64,000 nucleotides of DNA from Taiwanofungus camphoratus (Eukaryota > Basidiomycota > Agaricomycetes > Polyporales > Taiwanofungaceae). The stretch lies in assembly GCA_003999685.1 (NCBI GenBank), contig CP021222.1, positions 496,001-560,000 of the forward strand, in the 5' to 3' direction. This document shows positions 23,591-32,489 of this stretch, one piece after another. Positions within the stretch are counted from its first letter, which is position 1; each line of letters opens with the position of its first letter. The notes beneath the pieces were generated by a model that was not told the DNA's origin, did not search any database, and saw only the letters and a list, made by a program, of their open reading frames with translations. A program made the translations under genes and the position numbers.

Positions 23591-23922
23591 GATGATTTTA
23601 ATGTGCTCATGCTTAATGGCTGTTGACCTGCTGAAGAAGCCAAGTATTGGCCATACTGTAACATCTTGTGACAAAACTTTGCAATACACTTTCAAAGTGC
23701 ACTGTTGTCTCAGTACTGTTTTGACACATTTTTTTTGTCATTTTGTACAAATGCTAGAAAACAGTCCTGTAGCTAAAACCTTTTTCTATTCATTGCTGAA
23801 ATTCTGAGGTTATAAGCTAATGTTGTTGTGGAGTTATTTATAATTTACAGAAAATTGTACAAAGCTAATGAATGTATAGTAAAGAACACCTGGCAAGTCA
23901 TAGTCTCTGTTGCTTGACCATA

Positions 23923-24133
23923 CAGTGACTCACAAAACTGTTGCAATGCTTGTCACTTTCTGACTGTTTGGCCTATATCTCAGCAACCAGATATACAATA
24001 GCTTCAAATGTTGAACTGTTAGAAAGCCCTGCATTATGGCTTTCCAATGTGGTATCTATCATAAAAAACAGACAAGTATATGTGAAGTTATCTATTATTC
24101 TTTCAGAGAGTTCATTGCAACAGTTTTGTTGCT
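23923..24133 (+). repeat. Left terminal inverted repeat of the Tc1 element
   Basis: 211 bp from CAGTGACTCAC to GCAACAGTTTTGTTGCT. The innermost word GTTGCAACAGTTTTGTT-type sequence is itself repeated near the outer end (CAAAACTGTTGCAA), so each TIR carries sub-terminal copies of the same motif, a likely transposase binding site. Confidence 0.9.
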
Positions 24134-24163
24134 AGCATAATATGGAATAAAAAATACAAATGA

Positions 24164-25201
24164 TTAGTACTTAGTATATCCTCCTTTTGCCTTTATCACA
24201 GGCTCTACCTTTCTAGACATACTTTCTATCAAATTTTGACACACAGGAGCATCAATTGCATCCCATTCCTTCTCTACACGCTCCCAAAGTTTCAAAATCC
24301 CACTTGAAGGCTTTTCATACCCTGCAAGCCTTGTTTTCAAGTGTTGCCAAAGGTGCTCAATAGGATTGAGGTCAGGAGACTGAGCTGGCCATACCATGAC
24401 ATTAAAATCATGGTCCTGAAACCACCTTTTAGCCTTTTTGCTAGTGTGCTTGGGGTCATTGTCTTGCTGGAAGATGACATCTTAAGGGGTTAGACCATAG
24501 TAATCAAGTGATCCTTGAAGTTCATCCTCCAAGATGCTGATATAAAGGTCTGCATCCATCCTCCCATCAATCTTGTATGTCAATCCAACTCCTTCCCAAG
24601 TCATACAGCCCCATATTATGACACTCCCTCCATCAAACTTGACTGTTCCCTTCATCAGTCTGGCACTAAAACCCTCTTCTGGCTTTTTCCATGCCCATTT
24701 CCTTTCATCTGACCCCAGGTGATTGATTTTGGTCTCATCAGACCATATAACCTTCTTCCAATCATCCACAGTTCAGTGCTGATAATTTGCAGCAAAGTCG
24801 AACCTCTCCTTCTGATGATGCTTTGATAGTAGCGGTCATTTCTTCTTCACCACAGCCTTCATACCTGTTTTTCTCAGAGAACGATGAATGGTCTGTGGGG
24901 ATATGGGTGTGTTTTTAATATCCTGAAGTGTTTTAGACACTTGAACAGCACTTTCAGCCTTTCCAGTGCTAATTAAGCGAATAGCATGATGAATATCAGT
25001 GGAAAAAAGCTTGTCTGAGCAGCCACCAGAGGACTTGAGAAGGGTAGGATGAAGTCTAAAGCATATCCTGGTGATAGTACTATAATGTACACCAGTAGAG
25101 CTGGATATTTGGCAAGCAGATTGACCTAAATTAAGCAGAGAAAGAATTTGATTGGTAATGTCTGTAGAGAGGGATTTCATGATGATGAAAGTGTGGTCCA
25201 A
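24164..25201 (-). pseudogene. Tc1-type transposase, broken by three in-frame stops
   Basis: One continuous frame of about 345 codons from 25201 to 24164. N-terminal paired helix-turn-helix DNA-binding domains run from about residue 12 (ITNQILSLLNLGQSACQISS; ISPQTIHRSLRKTGMKAVVK), followed by the DDE domain with IWSDETKINHLGSDERKWAW, FDGGSVIIWGCMTWEGVGLT and VWPAQSPDLNPIEHLWQHLK. Stops interrupt it at about 24838, 24774 and 24483, with the frame otherwise preserved. There are no frameshifts, which fits point decay of C-to-T/G-to-A type rather than deletion. It is long enough to be the full family protein. Confidence 0.9.
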
Positions 25202-25319
25202 TTTGATATTATTGCTTGTTTGTGCTATGTTGAACTTCTCTTAAGGTCATATGACTTGCACAAGCCCAGCAAGCATGATGTCCTGCCACTGTCTATCAAT
25301 ATTTGATCTGCAAAATGTC

Positions 25320-25530
25320 AGCAACAAAACTGTTGCAACAAATCTTTTAAAAGAATGATAGATAACTTCACATATACTTGTCCATTTTTTATAATAGATA
25401 CCACATTGGAAAGCCATGATGCATGGCTTGCTAATGGTCTAATATTTGAAGCTATCACATATCTGGTTGCTGAGATATAGGCCAAACAGTCAGAAAGTGA
25501 CAAACATTGCAACAGTTTTATGAGTCACTG
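25320..25530 (-). repeat. Right terminal inverted repeat of the Tc1 element
   Basis: Reverse complement of the left TIR with about 24 differences in 211 positions. It ends TGAGTCACTG next to the TA target duplication. Confidence 0.9.
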
Positions 25531-25775
25531 TATGTTCCTACCTTCTTGAGACTATCCGCACTTTGGCATAAGATCCTGTCGTGCAGAACTCATTGGCCCC
25601 TTACTCCTTTGCACACATTAGACTTCTAGGACCCTGACTGTGGTCTAGGTGGTTTCTCTGTCATGTCCATTTGCATATCTTTTCCTCTGATATCTCTCAT
25701 AGATACCACATCACTCTAGCTCTCCTATCATAAAACACTGATGAGCACAGACAATGGCTGAACCAAGAAAAGGGC
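25531..25775. other. Unassigned island sequence
   Basis: Follows the Tc1 element. In minus-strand orientation it would be the body of the tRNA-headed SINE candidate next to it. No coding capacity seen. Confidence 0.35.
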
Positions 25776-25848
25776 AACACTAGCAGGATTTGAATCTGCA
25801 TCCTCTCAACTGGTCTTTCGATGCTTTAGACCATTAAGTTATAATGTC
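25776..25848 (-). mobile_element. tRNA-like sequence, probable head of a tRNA-derived SINE
   Basis: Exactly 73 nt. The ends GACATTA and TAGTGTT pair over seven positions, two of them G-T, like an acceptor stem. TAACTTAATGG resembles a pol III A box and GATTCAAATCC is a near-perfect B box inside a GCAG/CTGC T stem. The D stem is 3 bp and the anticodon stem about 4 bp with an 8-nt loop, so it is degenerate. There is no good anticodon loop, so a working tRNA is unlikely. Location in the transposon island suggests a SINE head or tRNA pseudogene. The call rests on fold and promoter boxes only. Confidence 0.6.
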
Positions 25849-25946: not shown

Positions 25947-26074
25947 GTCTTATCAATGCATCAGACCTACTCCCTAGGTTCATCCCTCCATTCAGGACTC
26001 CCTAGGTCTTATCAACGTATTACCCATTGGAGTTATAGGAGTGACCAGGTGTTCAATCTTAAGTAGGAGGGTAA

Positions 26075-26627
26075 TGATACAATTTCTTTTCTCTTGTATC
26101 TTATCAGTCAGACCTCGAATCAGTCCCATAACCTTTCACTTATTGGATGGGCCTTGGATAGGTCCAGCTTCTTTGTGCAGCCCATTGACTCATGGCTGCT
26201 TACAGTACAGGCCCCGGACAGGCCCAACTTACTCATGAACTCTGACTTATATTGGGCCCTGCTCTCACATTCCATCTTATGCATATGTATTGCTAATACA
26301 GCCTGATGACTCATATTGCCTTACTTATGCTTACTCGTGCTGCTTCTTAGATCACATGCCATGGTCCATGTGCAGAGTAGAATACATATATAAGGCCCTG
26401 TACTTTGTAGATCAGACCTTAAGTTTGATCCGGTTATCAGGTAGCTAGTACTCTAGCAATCCTATACTCATATCTTGCAATCTCTCACTTTGTACCTGAG
26501 TACTTGCTCGACATCTATCGACTTTATGCTCCATGGACAACAGATTGTCCTTAAGTCCTTGCTACCCTATTGTGTAGTCAGGCCCTCATATTTGAGGCTT
26601 CACAGTCATTGATACCAGCTTGTATCA
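26075..26627 (+). mobile_element. Solo LTR (LTR retrotransposon fossil)
   Basis: A 553-bp block with the TG...CA ends of a long terminal repeat: TGATACAA at its start and TTGTATCA at its end are perfect inverses. A CATATATAAGG promoter-like word lies about 320 bp in. No second copy and no internal region is present in the window, so it is a relic left by LTR recombination. No matching target duplication is seen at its edges, which suggests age. Superfamily is not decidable from the LTR alone. Orientation follows the TATA word. Confidence 0.55.
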
Positions 26628-27552
26628 TTGACAGCAATTGCCATCCCTTACCACAAAGATAGCTTTGCAAACAGATAGCTGTAGAATAAGAGAGAATTTT
26701 GATCCCCCTTGCTTGAACATTCTTTATCAACAGCTACCAGAGCCAACACAGGCTCTGAAGCTGACATACAGGACTCTAAATGTGCTATTTAATGGGATGT
26801 GACATGAGTTATATACAAATTGTTTGTGTATGCTTGCTCACACACATGACTCATAAGCTGGCAGGACACCTAAGGTGTCACAAACTACCTAGGCAAGTCA
26901 GCTTCATCACTGATAAAGCCTGTTGACATTCTAAAAAAGGGTCTATGAACCCTGAAAAATGGTCCTCACAACCCTTTTGCACACAAGTTAGTCAACTGTA
27001 CTGACATGACATCAATGACACTACACATCATGGGCAATTCTGATAGGCAGCCAGTGTTCTGCCTGACCTGTCACTCCTCTTTACAATGGCATTGACATAT
27101 GGCACTAGACCTGCAAAGAGAAGCACATCAATCTGCAGTATCCTGACAATATATCTGCTTCATAAATTTTGAGATGACTGATAACACAACAAATGTTTTG
27201 ACAATGATCAAGGTCAAGGTTTCAACCTTGATTTGATCAGCTTTTTGGCATCTCTACATGATTTAGCATCCTGCATTCAGCAGCATGCATATCAATTCTC
27301 TGTGCACACGTTCTGCTTTTATCTAAGTCATTAAATGCCTGTGAATATAAGCGCCAGTATATGAAATCCAATGACTTTGCTGATATACCCACATACCTCT
27401 AAATTATTGTAAATCTAAGACAGGGTAATATCTGATAAACCTGAGTCCCTGTTATGTAACTAATTTGAATCAGACATCTGAGACCAGTAATTCTAATATT
27501 ATTAAAGTCACTTTATTCATTAAGACTACAAGTAGCCAGCACTGGCAGAAAC
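26628..27552. other. Unassigned island sequence next to Dicer
   Basis: About 900 bp of AT-rich, CpG-poor sequence without a coding frame, inverted ends or recognised element. Probably an old, decayed transposon remnant. Confidence 0.4.
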
Positions 27553-27667
27553 TTAGATGTGACATTTTAGGTCTTGATCCTATTAACTAATGTATGCGTA
27601 TTGAAGATTGTCTTCAACATGCATATATCAGTTGATAGAATCAAGACCTGATAATATCACATCTAAA
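27553..27667. repeat. Long near-continuous hairpin overlapping the Dicer 3' end
   Basis: The arm at 27553-27597 is the inverse of 27621-27667, with about 85 percent identity by hand and one indel. Between them lies a perfect inner hairpin, TTGAAGA-TTG-TCTTCAA. The whole 115 nt can fold into one stem of about 50 bp with a 3-nt loop. Part of it (27628-27667) is coding sequence for the last Dicer residues and stop. It could be an inserted MITE that supplied the new C-terminus, or a regulatory fold in the transcript. Confidence 0.75.
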
Positions 27668-30600
27668 ATTGCTGCTGGAGCAATGCAAGATAAATCTTCA
27701 CTCAAGTTCAGCTTCTCACCCAATGTACCCGGTGATTCAGTAGATGGGTCAATTTGCATCATGTCCTCCACTTCTTGTTCTTCAGCCAACACAGTAACAT
27801 CTTCCTCAACAGCCTCCTTATCTTCCATCACATTCTGATCCCCATGACAAGCACCATCATACTCTTCTCTGATGATAGTTGCAAGTGCTGCAAAGCCATC
27901 CTCTGTCTCATCATCCAATAGCCTTGTCTCCGTCTCACTTGTCTTAGTGCCGGTGTTATCCACAGTCACACTTTCGCCACAGTTACAGACATGAGACAAG
28001 CAATATGGATGTTGGGGATCACCAAGGAGGTTACGAGCTCTCTCCGCTGCAAGTCCTTTGGCCAGAGATAAATTTGGTGCTATGACAGGTCCAACGACGG
28101 TCTGACCATGGATGATGACAGATATACTGTCATTCCGTTTGACCTCAGGCCGGCTTTGGAGTTTCCTACAAGAACAATTAGTATGTTGTTGGTGGAATTC
28201 AACAATGATATGTACCGAAAACTTATTTTCCTGCACCCAGACTGTGCAGCCCAGATCATCAACTCAGATACTGGGTCCCTCGGTAGGTCAGGAGATAGTA
28301 CAACGAGTAGATCCTCCAAAGCTAGCTCAGCAACAGTCGACGCTCGCTCAAAGTTGTAGTCCGTATCAACTAGAACGGCACCGAGCACACTCTCCAGAAC
28401 ATCACTGATGGCCTTAGGCGGATCCTGTTTCCAAGCATTGAGAACGATATCCTCATTGGATAGTTCTTCCAGAATCGCAACGTGTTTAGTAATAGCTATG
28501 CTGAGCTCAACGTTATTGACCAGGAGTAATTTGTGTAGCCCCAGGCGCTTGATGGCAACGGAAGCTAGCGCGGGTGCGCAGACTGCGCGCGAACGAGCCC
28601 AGGAAAGTTGGCCTGATGTAGCTTTGGGAAACTTCACATACAAGTATCTCATGACCACCAAATCAATGAGGGCTGACGGATTCGGAGCAATCAGCGAGAT
28701 TTAGTACGATACGACCAACCAAATTCACGCACCGTCTCCCATGAACTCCAGACGCTGATAGGAAGAAGTATCAGATTGTGCAAAGGATGGGTGAGTCACG
28801 GCTTCGAGCAACAGATGTCCGCGTCGAAACTGGTAGCCAAGTGCTTCCTGTAAGTTGGTAAAGAGAGAAGAGACAGGCGTCTCCTGTAATCGTCCTCCAT
28901 AGCGCGCATTCCAAGGTAAGGGACCTCCGAAGCTCAAGCCGAGTGCGGTCCCCGCGTGTAGAGCCATGTTTATTCCACCGGTAACGAAGCTCGCACCAAG
29001 CGTAGCTTCCATACAGTCTTGTAAACTTCTGCGTGGGTAAAGTCTTTGGCTATATCGATACGGCTTACTGGATGATGGATCCATATGGGCAGGCGACGTG
29101 TACCTCCATAATCGCAGACTTTGAGGCTCGCATGTCAAATATTGTTCCAATTGAAGCTCCTTCGCACGTGCAAGCAAGGTACGATTCGACACCGAGTTTC
29201 TTCGCAACATGTCGAGTTGACCCTCGTGACGATGTGGAAACTTGTTGAATAGATATACGACAGTGCTGAGCTTCAACACTGAATCTCCCAACGTTTCCAA
29301 ACGCTGGTTGTTGAAGCCCGCGTTCGCGCTTGGTAATGTCAACGCCTGGACCAGCAAGTCGTCAGCAATAGGTGGAAGTCCCAGTTCGATGCGTGCGGTG
29401 CGAGCACGATAAACATCTGTAATGCGGTGACATAACTCTGGTAAAATATGAAAAGTTCGGTAGACATCTTCCGAGATCTCCACCCGCCGACACATCTTCA
29501 GTGGATATAAGAAAATTGATGGCACAGTTGTGACGATTTCCTGACCCGCACCGGCGTTATCTAAAGAATAAGCACAAGAGGTGTGCCGAACATAGGGCTG
29601 CGCTTCAATGCAAGGTCCATCAATGGGTATCTCCAGAACGGCCCCTCGTCGGGTGTATTTATCTAGCCAATACTCCCTGTAAGATGTAAAGCCTGCTTCC
29701 CGAGAGCCCCGGGGAGGAACGGACAGGGGAGAAACATCAGTACATATTTTGCGAAGGAGGAGAGGACGGCCTGTTTCCCTGTTGAACATCAGTAGAGTGC
29801 GATCATAATGCTCTTCCCCGATTCCTGACCAGTCGTAGGTGCCATAAGGGTGCTGTACTGCTCGATCGATGGCCTGAAAGTCAATCTGTAAAGCATGAGT
29901 AATGGGGACTAGGTAGCACGTCAGTGGGAGAGAGATCCCTCTTCCAGTAATGCACCACCATAGTCCCATTCTCATGAAATCTTCCATTACTCTGCGCTGC
30001 CTCCATTCATCTTCCTCATCAAAGTACACCTGTTTCCCTTCGCTGGTTGAGACGTAGACACCGTTACAAACCAATTCTACGGGCGGTAGTAGTGTCCCCG
30101 TGACAAGACCTGCAGTTGGGCGGCCGTCCAGACAGACAACATGTAACCATTGCTTGTCGCCCCGGGTCCAAGGATCACGAACCTGAACATACATCATGTC
30201 AGGTATCTTGCTGACATCTTGAATAATGCGACCGTCGGCGTCCTCATGATCTCCGTTATTGCCACACTGGGCTGGGAGAAGATAATCATCGAATACGTTA
30301 AGTGCGTGTAACTGTTTGACAGCTAGAAAAGCGACGGCACGTTTGGCTTCCTTTTTCGAACGCTTAGATGGACCAGTATAAAGCAGGTGTTCATGCGGTA
30401 GAGGAAGACTAGTGGGGAGTTGGATCGTCGAGGAGAAACCGCCAGAGTACTGAGGTAAGTGTGCTGGCGTGAATTTGTCGTGCGGGATCAGGGAGCATAA
30501 GTGATTCAAGAGACCGATTGCACTACCGTACGTGAGTACAGCACCGGTGTGTGGTATGACGTATCTTTCTCTTTCCGCGATATCTGCGGGATGATCAGAG

Positions 30601-32489
30601 TCTTCCTCTTCGTCTGCAGAGCTTTGCGATGGGTCGTCGCGTGTTTGATACACAAGGCGAAGGTGTGGCTCGCTCTCGGAGAAGGCTTTATAGCGAGCCA
30701 TGTGGGTTGCATGACCTTGTTGAACCATGATCACAAACTTGGAGCTCTTATGGCGCGCTCGTCCACGCGATTGGAGATATCCAACCATATGCTGCAGTGG
30801 ATCAAAGCGAATGACAAGGTCGCAAGCCTGATAAATAATCAATTAATAGCCCCATCAGTAATGAACTGAACTTACTGGAAAGTCAAGACCTTCTTCTGCA
30901 ACAGATGTTGCTATGACTATACGAGTGAATGTCGCAATTAGATTATAAAATTATATAAGACAGAATAAAATAGAATAAAAATGACGCTCACGAAGATTTA
31001 TCTTTCGCTCACGGAACAACTTCACAACGTCCTGCTGTGTCTTCAAAGCCATGCCTTTAATATGAGACTTTGCCAGGTTCGTCGCCCCGTGACCAATGAG
31101 TTGCCCACTCTTGATGAGGTGACTTAATTGAGGAACACGAGGGAGCATCTTCGCGAGACATGCCGCCACATGTCGCTGCTCAACAAAAACGATGCCTTGA
31201 AAAGTGGAGGTATAATGATCGAAGAGAATGTCTATCAACTCGCGAACTTTCGGAGAACACCATTTAAGATGGACGGTGGCCGGAACCACATCGGAGTTTG
31301 TTTCATCTTCAAATAGGTACCGAAATTTGGCCAACACGTTTTGCATTTCCTTGACTTCCGCTGGAAGTTGTACTTCTGAAGTGGCCGGGATCAGAGGCTC
31401 GTCGCTATCTGTGTCAACAAAATTGAGGGCAAAGTATTCCAAGTCAACCTCGCCAGTGTGGTTGATCAGCTGCATGATTCTCTGCTTCACATCATTGTAC
31501 AGAAATAGGTCGGCGCCGTAAGGTCCCAAACTAGCGTATGTCACTTCGTATCTCGTTCGAATCTTGTCTACAGGTAGGCCGATCGCCGGAGGTAGATCTG
31601 ATAAACTCAATTGATGCCAGAGGGAAATGCCCAAGTAAGCCGGGTACGCATCCAGAGGGGCTGCATACTCATGTATAACCTGCGCGACAGTCAGTTTGAC
31701 TTAGAAAAGTTGAGACTGCAAGTTACCTCCAGCGGTTTAGGAGAGTGACCCATCAGTTCATCGACATGTTGACGAACAGCAATTACTTTGGCATCCAAGT
31801 TTCTTTCCAGCGTTACCAGAGATTCAACGGCATCCCTTGGATTCCAAATCGGTGACGCTGTCATGCCAAAGACTTTCGGTCGTCTCTCAGGTGGTAATTG
31901 GAAATACTCGCGCATGATACCATTATACGCGTGATTCTTCCGCGTATGATGACATTCGTCGAAAACCATCAATGAAACCTGGAGTGTAAGTTGACGCTCG
32001 GTCGTTAGGAGGATATCGCAATATCCAACGCAGGCATACCTTGTCCAAACTCCAATGCGAATGAGTGAGAATGTTGAAGAATATTTGAGCTGACACAGAT
32101 TGAGCATGCGGTGTACTAGAAAGATACTTAAACATACCTGTCATTACAAGAACGTCCGCACCGTCCAGTTCTTTCTTCCACCCGACGCGGTCTGCTAAAT
32201 CTACAGCTGTTGCTCCGCAAAATTTCCTGACGCGCAACGGTGTTTGCTTCACGATGAAATCCCCCTGCTGATCAACAAGCGCGACCTTCGGGACAAGAAA
32301 GACAGTGATCTTGCCCATTCCCGCGTCCCGCGCCGCAATCCATCTGATCAAAAGTGTGCTAATGTATGTCTTTCCGCTCCCCGTGTCCAACGCAGCTATA
32401 ACATTACTGCGTTGGGCGCGAGAAAAGATCTCTTCCTGGTAGCGACGCGGCAGCAAGGCATCGCTAACATCTTCCAGATTCACAGTCAT
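27628..32489 (-). CDS. Dicer-like ribonuclease, multiple exons
   Basis: Double-stranded-RNA-cutting enzyme of RNA interference. The N-terminal helicase has Walker A ALDTGSGKT, the DECH box (VFDECHHTRKNHAY) and GMTASPIWNPRD. The C-terminal helicase lobe includes DLVIRFDPLQHMVGYLQSRG and RARHKSS. A Dicer-dimerisation segment follows (HLCSLIPHDKF...KKEAKRAVAFLAVKQLHAL). RNase IIIa has QRLETLGDSVLKL and DCMEATLGASF; RNase IIIb has YQRLEFMGDGALIDL and SDVLESVLGAVL, so the Glu/Asp metal ligands are present in both. A canonical PAZ domain is not obvious. The tail has a degenerate dsRNA-binding-like segment, then an acidic extension (TEDGFAALATIIREEYDG). Total about 1,400 aa. The start at 32489 precedes NLEDVSDALLPRRYQEEIF. 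The 3' end abuts the transposon island and lies in a hairpin. Confidence 0.93.

Follow-up and report, generated by a model that had tools for sequence, protein, structure and literature searches.

Does the messenger RNA of a fungal Dicer end in a hairpin that Dicer itself could cut? The question was raised by a 64,000-nt stretch of the Taiwanofungus camphoratus genome (C3:496001-560000 of 33,194,378 bases in 15 contigs; hereafter the window, whose positions are used throughout), for which the original prediction proposed that a fold-back at the end of a Dicer gene could be cleaved by the product of that same gene, with a MITE inserted at the gene end as the alternative.

A fold-back across the predicted stop codon of Dicer

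On the minus strand of the window, the Dicer gene was followed from the start of its helicase domain (DEAD, 31923..32489; PF00270, 6.7e-8), through a frame encoding the dimerisation domain and the first RNase III domain (28725..30842; PF03368, 5.5e-16 and PF00636, 2.4e-19), to a frame encoding the second RNase III domain (28080..28661; PF00636, 6e-11). The top scorers among solved chains for the product of 28725..30842 were Dicers. The frame for the second RNase III domain extends at its end into a predicted 50-nt intron (28166..28215, reading GTACAT ... TACTAAT ... TAG), beyond which lies the predicted last exon (27628..28165), terminated by a predicted TGA at 27628..27630. The gene is otherwise intact-looking. 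By eye and in a low-confidence structure model, the last exon opens with what looks like the latter half of a dsRBD, and an acidic tail follows; the model, built from the single sequence, showed a strand-strand-helix at the start of the exon, with a mean pLDDT of 43 that is too weak to rely on. Following the dsRBD-like part, the predicted Dicer end also carries a Cys/His cluster, HPYCLSHVCNC (27979-28011, minus strand). The Dcr1 protein of S. pombe has a metal-binding C-terminus.

The fold-back occupies 27553..27666 on the minus strand, where it forms a 114-nt near-palindrome of 50-51 pairs; position 27667, originally counted as part of it, is one unpaired base beyond. It consists of an inverted repeat with 39-nt arms, 85% complementary and separated by a 3-nt loop (27608..27610), and of an outward extension with 14-nt arms that are 93% complementary. 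In the sense of the Dicer mRNA, the 56-nt 5′ arm (27611..27666) comprises the last 12 predicted codons, the stop codon at nt 37-39 and 17 nt more, and the 3′ arm (27553..27607) falls in the predicted 3′ UTR. The anatomy first described for this hairpin, namely a stem of about 50 bp with a 3-nt loop covering the last Dicer codons, the stop and the following 75 bp, was thus borne out, the hairpin holding 12 full codons ahead of the TGA at 27630-27628. The comparison of folding energies with shuffled sequence that had been suggested at the same time likewise came out strongly in favor of a genuine stem. The plus strand folded at -61.1 kcal/mol with 51 pairs (z -12.8) and the minus strand, which is the Dicer sense, at -61.4 kcal/mol with 50 pairs (z -15.7), with 0 of 200 shuffles as good in either case. 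The stem was retained in a 511-nt predicted-mRNA context, and this piece as a whole outperformed all of 100 shuffles (z -5.4).

Were the last exon mis-predicted, the hairpin would lie outside the Dicer transcript. In line with such an error, the exon returned no Pfam and no PDB matches up to an E-value of 10 and no convincing match to the Dicer-like paralogue on contig C7, and its first 60 codons scored as non-coding-like, 486 of 2000 mononucleotide shuffles being equally high in a codon test trained on 4466 codons pooled from the Dicer frames and from long open frames, not all of them proven genes. Against it stand the canonical-looking 50-nt intron and the next 105 codons, which run up to the hairpin free of stops (a chance of about 8e-4 by composition) and yielded a coding-like score equaled by 0 of 2000 mononucleotide shuffles. 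We regard a mis-drawn exon as highly improbable. The hairpin's own codons scored as non-coding-like (745 of 2000 mononucleotide shuffles equally high, 13 codons being few for the test), and their contrast with the coding-like 105 codons that precede them fits DNA that was added late to the gene.

The regularity of the stem is exceptional in its surroundings

The hairpin was compared with 264 kb of sequence, made up of the 64-kb window and of 20 segments of contig C1, each 10 kb long. It was the only ungapped palindrome scoring at least 18 in the window, and three windows simulated from neighbor-base frequencies yielded one palindrome of 14 and otherwise none of at least 12. Across the 264 kb, two palindromes scored at least 15: the hairpin (24) and a palindrome with a 31-nt loop at locus L038 (32.5). 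When 17,418 segments of 150 nt from the same 264 kb were folded, unbranched stems of at least 40 pairs turned up at 399 loci and of at least 50 pairs at 37. Only one of the 399 long-stem loci, the hairpin, reached 85% or more paired bases within its stem, a cut chosen with the hairpin in view; it also had the most pairs (60 over 141 nt, flanking bases included). By raw folding energy it ranked 15th of 988 loci in the 264 kb, the more stable loci having less regular stems. It was missing from the 13 lowest-energy loci of one scan whose 20-nt grid cuts the hairpin; mismatches carried no cost in that scan, so that stems of at least 36 pairs abounded and it was unselective. Shuffle z-scores, palindrome scan and stem regularity together rule out a chance fold, although raw energy alone does not single the hairpin out. 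The hairpin is real, locally exceptional and strikingly placed.

All substitutions between the arms are transitions

Alignment of the two arms over 56 stem columns gave 47 identities, eight transitions, no transversions and one 1-nt gap, a divergence of 16% (9 of 56 columns). The arms had been said to differ mostly by transitions, with about half the mismatches becoming G-U pairs in the RNA of either strand; in fact all eight substitutions are transitions, and on either strand they give four G-U and four A.C oppositions. If pairing in the Dicer message were under selection, G-U should be favored in the Dicer sense; the equal numbers of G-U and A.C on both strands show no sign of this, eight sites being few. 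All-transition changes with equal G-U and A.C are as would be expected from the drift of a once better palindrome. Mild selection on the stem would also be expected to leave arms that have diverged by 16% and yet retain 50 pairs.

The hairpin occurs at a single place in the genome

MITEs occur as families of elements. The proposal that the hairpin is such an element stood as far as its form is concerned, in that a 114-nt near-palindrome with short terminal inverted repeats was found, and failed with respect to related copies. DNA searches of the 33.2-Mb genome, which skip very common words, with the 115 bases (E-value 0.001) and with 141 bases (E-value 10) detected no second copy, nor did the hairpin match anything in phage and plasmid collections. 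Hairpin patterns of 25, 29 and 31 nt had no second place anywhere in the genome with up to three mismatches; a 29-nt pattern fitted to both arms matched the two arms only. Exact 9-nt hairpin ends spaced 80-110 nt apart likewise occurred at no second place genome-wide. Thus, the search for further copies, many of which would have been the sign of a plain MITE, returned this one place, and a living MITE family is ruled out by DNA, pattern and paired-end searches alike. A MITE origin would accordingly have no family behind it. The ends of the hairpin read TA...TA; they are self-complementary and themselves belong to the palindrome, from which a target-site duplication would be indistinguishable.

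The same searches bear on a further explanation, in which the Dicer transcript acts as the carrier of a microRNA-like hairpin whose small RNAs target other genes. The tiny loop matches what is described for confirmed fungal hairpins, which have little or no terminal loop, and reports of such loci frequently place them at protein-coding genes (PMC9757828). The same source describes confirmed fungal hairpins as very short, as opposed to 114 nt here, and considers coding-region loci likely misannotations (PMC9757828). Nor did the hairpin match Rfam at the gathering score (the window yielded one tRNA only), and its 25-, 29- and 31-nt stretches are without a second genomic place at up to three mismatches. 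We give this explanation very little credence.

Several repeats were noted on the downstream side of the gene. An LTR-like repeat lies at 26020-26637, running by eye from TGATACAA to TTGTATCA at about 26073-26627, and has at least 44 other matches in the genome, most of them at 79-88% identity (40 of 376 candidates scored). When 26020-27552 was used as a query for a larger repeat on this side, none of the 45 matches listed, except the query itself, reached past about 26637. The L038 palindrome (30-130, with the 31-nt loop) starts, by eye, with TGATACAA like the LTR-like repeat. Farther on, at 23916-25537, two 223-nt inverted repeats with 88% complementarity and 1176 nt between them enclose what by eye is an apparent remnant of a Tc1/mariner-type transposase. 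Between the two mobile-looking elements is the tRNA match (25775-25848, minus strand, 34.4 bits).

The stem is probably transcribed and could in principle be diced

A candidate poly(A) signal, AATAAA, is located 35 nt beyond the hairpin (27512..27517, minus strand), and a transcript ending there would include the whole stem. Fungal poly(A) signals are loose. Judging from this predicted signal, the Dicer mRNA probably carries the hairpin at its 3′ end. The genome returned eight RNase III matches, corresponding to three Dicer-like loci with two domains each plus single matches on contigs C5 and C1. The two further Dicer-like loci, at about 2.029 Mb of C7 (L023) and about 0.861 Mb of C2 (L024), hold two RNase III matches each; an ungapped scan of both revealed no palindrome scoring at least 15. 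Manual grouping placed 22 Piwi matches in about seven places and 16 RdRP matches in about six, which for a genome of 33 Mb amounts to a considerable silencing repertoire. The presence of Dicer-like, Piwi and RdRP genes makes the cutting and amplification of double-stranded RNA plausible in this host. The stem is long enough for a Dicer substrate, and its anatomy could in principle permit self-cutting.

A feature that precedes a candidate poly(A) signal so closely and is equally stable on both strands might alternatively act at the DNA level or at the 3′ end in a manner unrelated to dicing, as a cruciform, by pausing transcription or by protecting the mRNA end. The overlap of the hairpin with predicted coding sequence and the stop codon argues against such a role, as does the absence of a comparable palindrome from both paralogue loci in the ungapped scan, and we consider it decidedly unlikely.

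Selected self-regulation would consist in Dicer, be it the product of this gene or of either paralogue, cutting the stem and removing the poly(A) tail, thereby lowering output when Dicer is in excess and translation is scarce. The position of the hairpin ahead of the candidate poly(A) signal, its stability in the Dicer sense (-61.4 kcal/mol, z -15.7) and in the 511-nt context, the silencing genes of the host and precedents from Arabidopsis DCL1 (PMC12825306), Drosha-Dgcr8 (PMC3814725) and bacterial RNase III (PMC3386247) all speak for it. Set against these are the lack of G-U bias in the Dicer sense (four G-U, four A.C), the two paralogue loci without such a palindrome and the ribosome that, while terminating, would occupy the greater part of the 5′ arm. 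Taken together, these points leave selected self-regulation unlikely.

An orphan fold-back, possibly an incidental Dicer substrate

We put at about an even chance the reading that the hairpin is an orphan fold-back, born either of a local inverted duplication or as the last decayed copy of a MITE, that may be an incidental substrate of Dicer. Counted in its favor were the most regular long stem in 264 kb, the single genomic place, substitutions that are transitions only and the neighboring mobile-looking repeats. An old inverted duplication or dead mobile element is also a simpler reading than self-cutting by Dicer.

The orphan fold-back would sit across the 3′ end of the Dicer gene and supply its last 12 codons and stop. 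A terminating ribosome has a footprint reaching about 10 nt past the stop codon. On these footprint sizes, a ribosome terminating at the Dicer stop would sit over the larger part of the 5′ arm and open the stem, of which only the top would stay closed. The full stem would then exist mainly on untranslated mRNA, be it nuclear or stalled, where Dicer may occasionally cut it; such a cut would split the coding part of the message from its poly(A) tail. We infer that dicing, where it happens, is incidental rather than selected. The same geometry would also permit a translation-gated self-destruct stem, in which ribosomes at the stop codon hold the stem open and protect the message, and in which failed translation or excess Dicer lets the stem close and be cut, with loss of the poly(A) tail; this version is, in our estimation, rather improbable. 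If the stem is cut, silencing capacity would be coupled to translation of the Dicer message. If it is left uncut, the locus would show instructively how a solitary fold-back can become the last codons of a gene.

Comparison with known systems

Plant MITEs are reported to give rise to microRNA genes (PMC10004981) and exemplify short inverted-repeat elements as a source of hairpin precursors, their point of likeness to the present hairpin. Plant MITEs form families of elements, whereas the hairpin described here has no second copy.

The precedent originally invoked for feedback, cleavage of Dgcr8 mRNA by Drosha, is documented (PMC3814725), and closer ones exist in DCL1 and rnc. As in the Dicer message, the Drosha target is a stem-loop in an mRNA of the RNase III enzyme's own pathway, but it is found at the 5′ end of the partner's mRNA, and its cleavage was demonstrated in mammalian cells, whereas cutting is only proposed here. 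Bacterial RNase III cuts a helix in its own rnc mRNA, which in S. aureus lies within the coding region (PMC3386247). Here too an RNase III enzyme is paired with a stem in its own mRNA, as predicted for Dicer; the differences are that the enzyme is bacterial and that its cleavage was seen in vitro with in vivo support. Among the matches listed in a literature search, titles and abstract openings mentioned no hairpin at the stop codon of a fungal Dicer message.

The closest parallels come from Arabidopsis DCL1. Intron 14 of DCL1 harbors pre-miR838, the processing of which by DCL1 is described as yielding nonproductive DCL1 fragments (PMC12825306). Pre-miR838 is a hairpin within a Dicer transcript, as is predicted for the one reported here; it differs in being intronic and from a plant, while ours extends over the stop codon into the predicted 3′ UTR. 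In the same account, the 5′ UTR of DCL1 contains a stem-loop that was enriched with catalytically inactive DCL1 and suggested to have an autoregulatory role, with no small RNAs mapped to it (PMC12825306). This, too, is a stem in Dicer's own mRNA, although its 5′ UTR location, partial conservation and binding data set it apart from the present hairpin. Should the stem be cut, it would place a Dicer feedback loop at the stop codon, in contrast to the intronic or 5′ placement of these eukaryotic examples.
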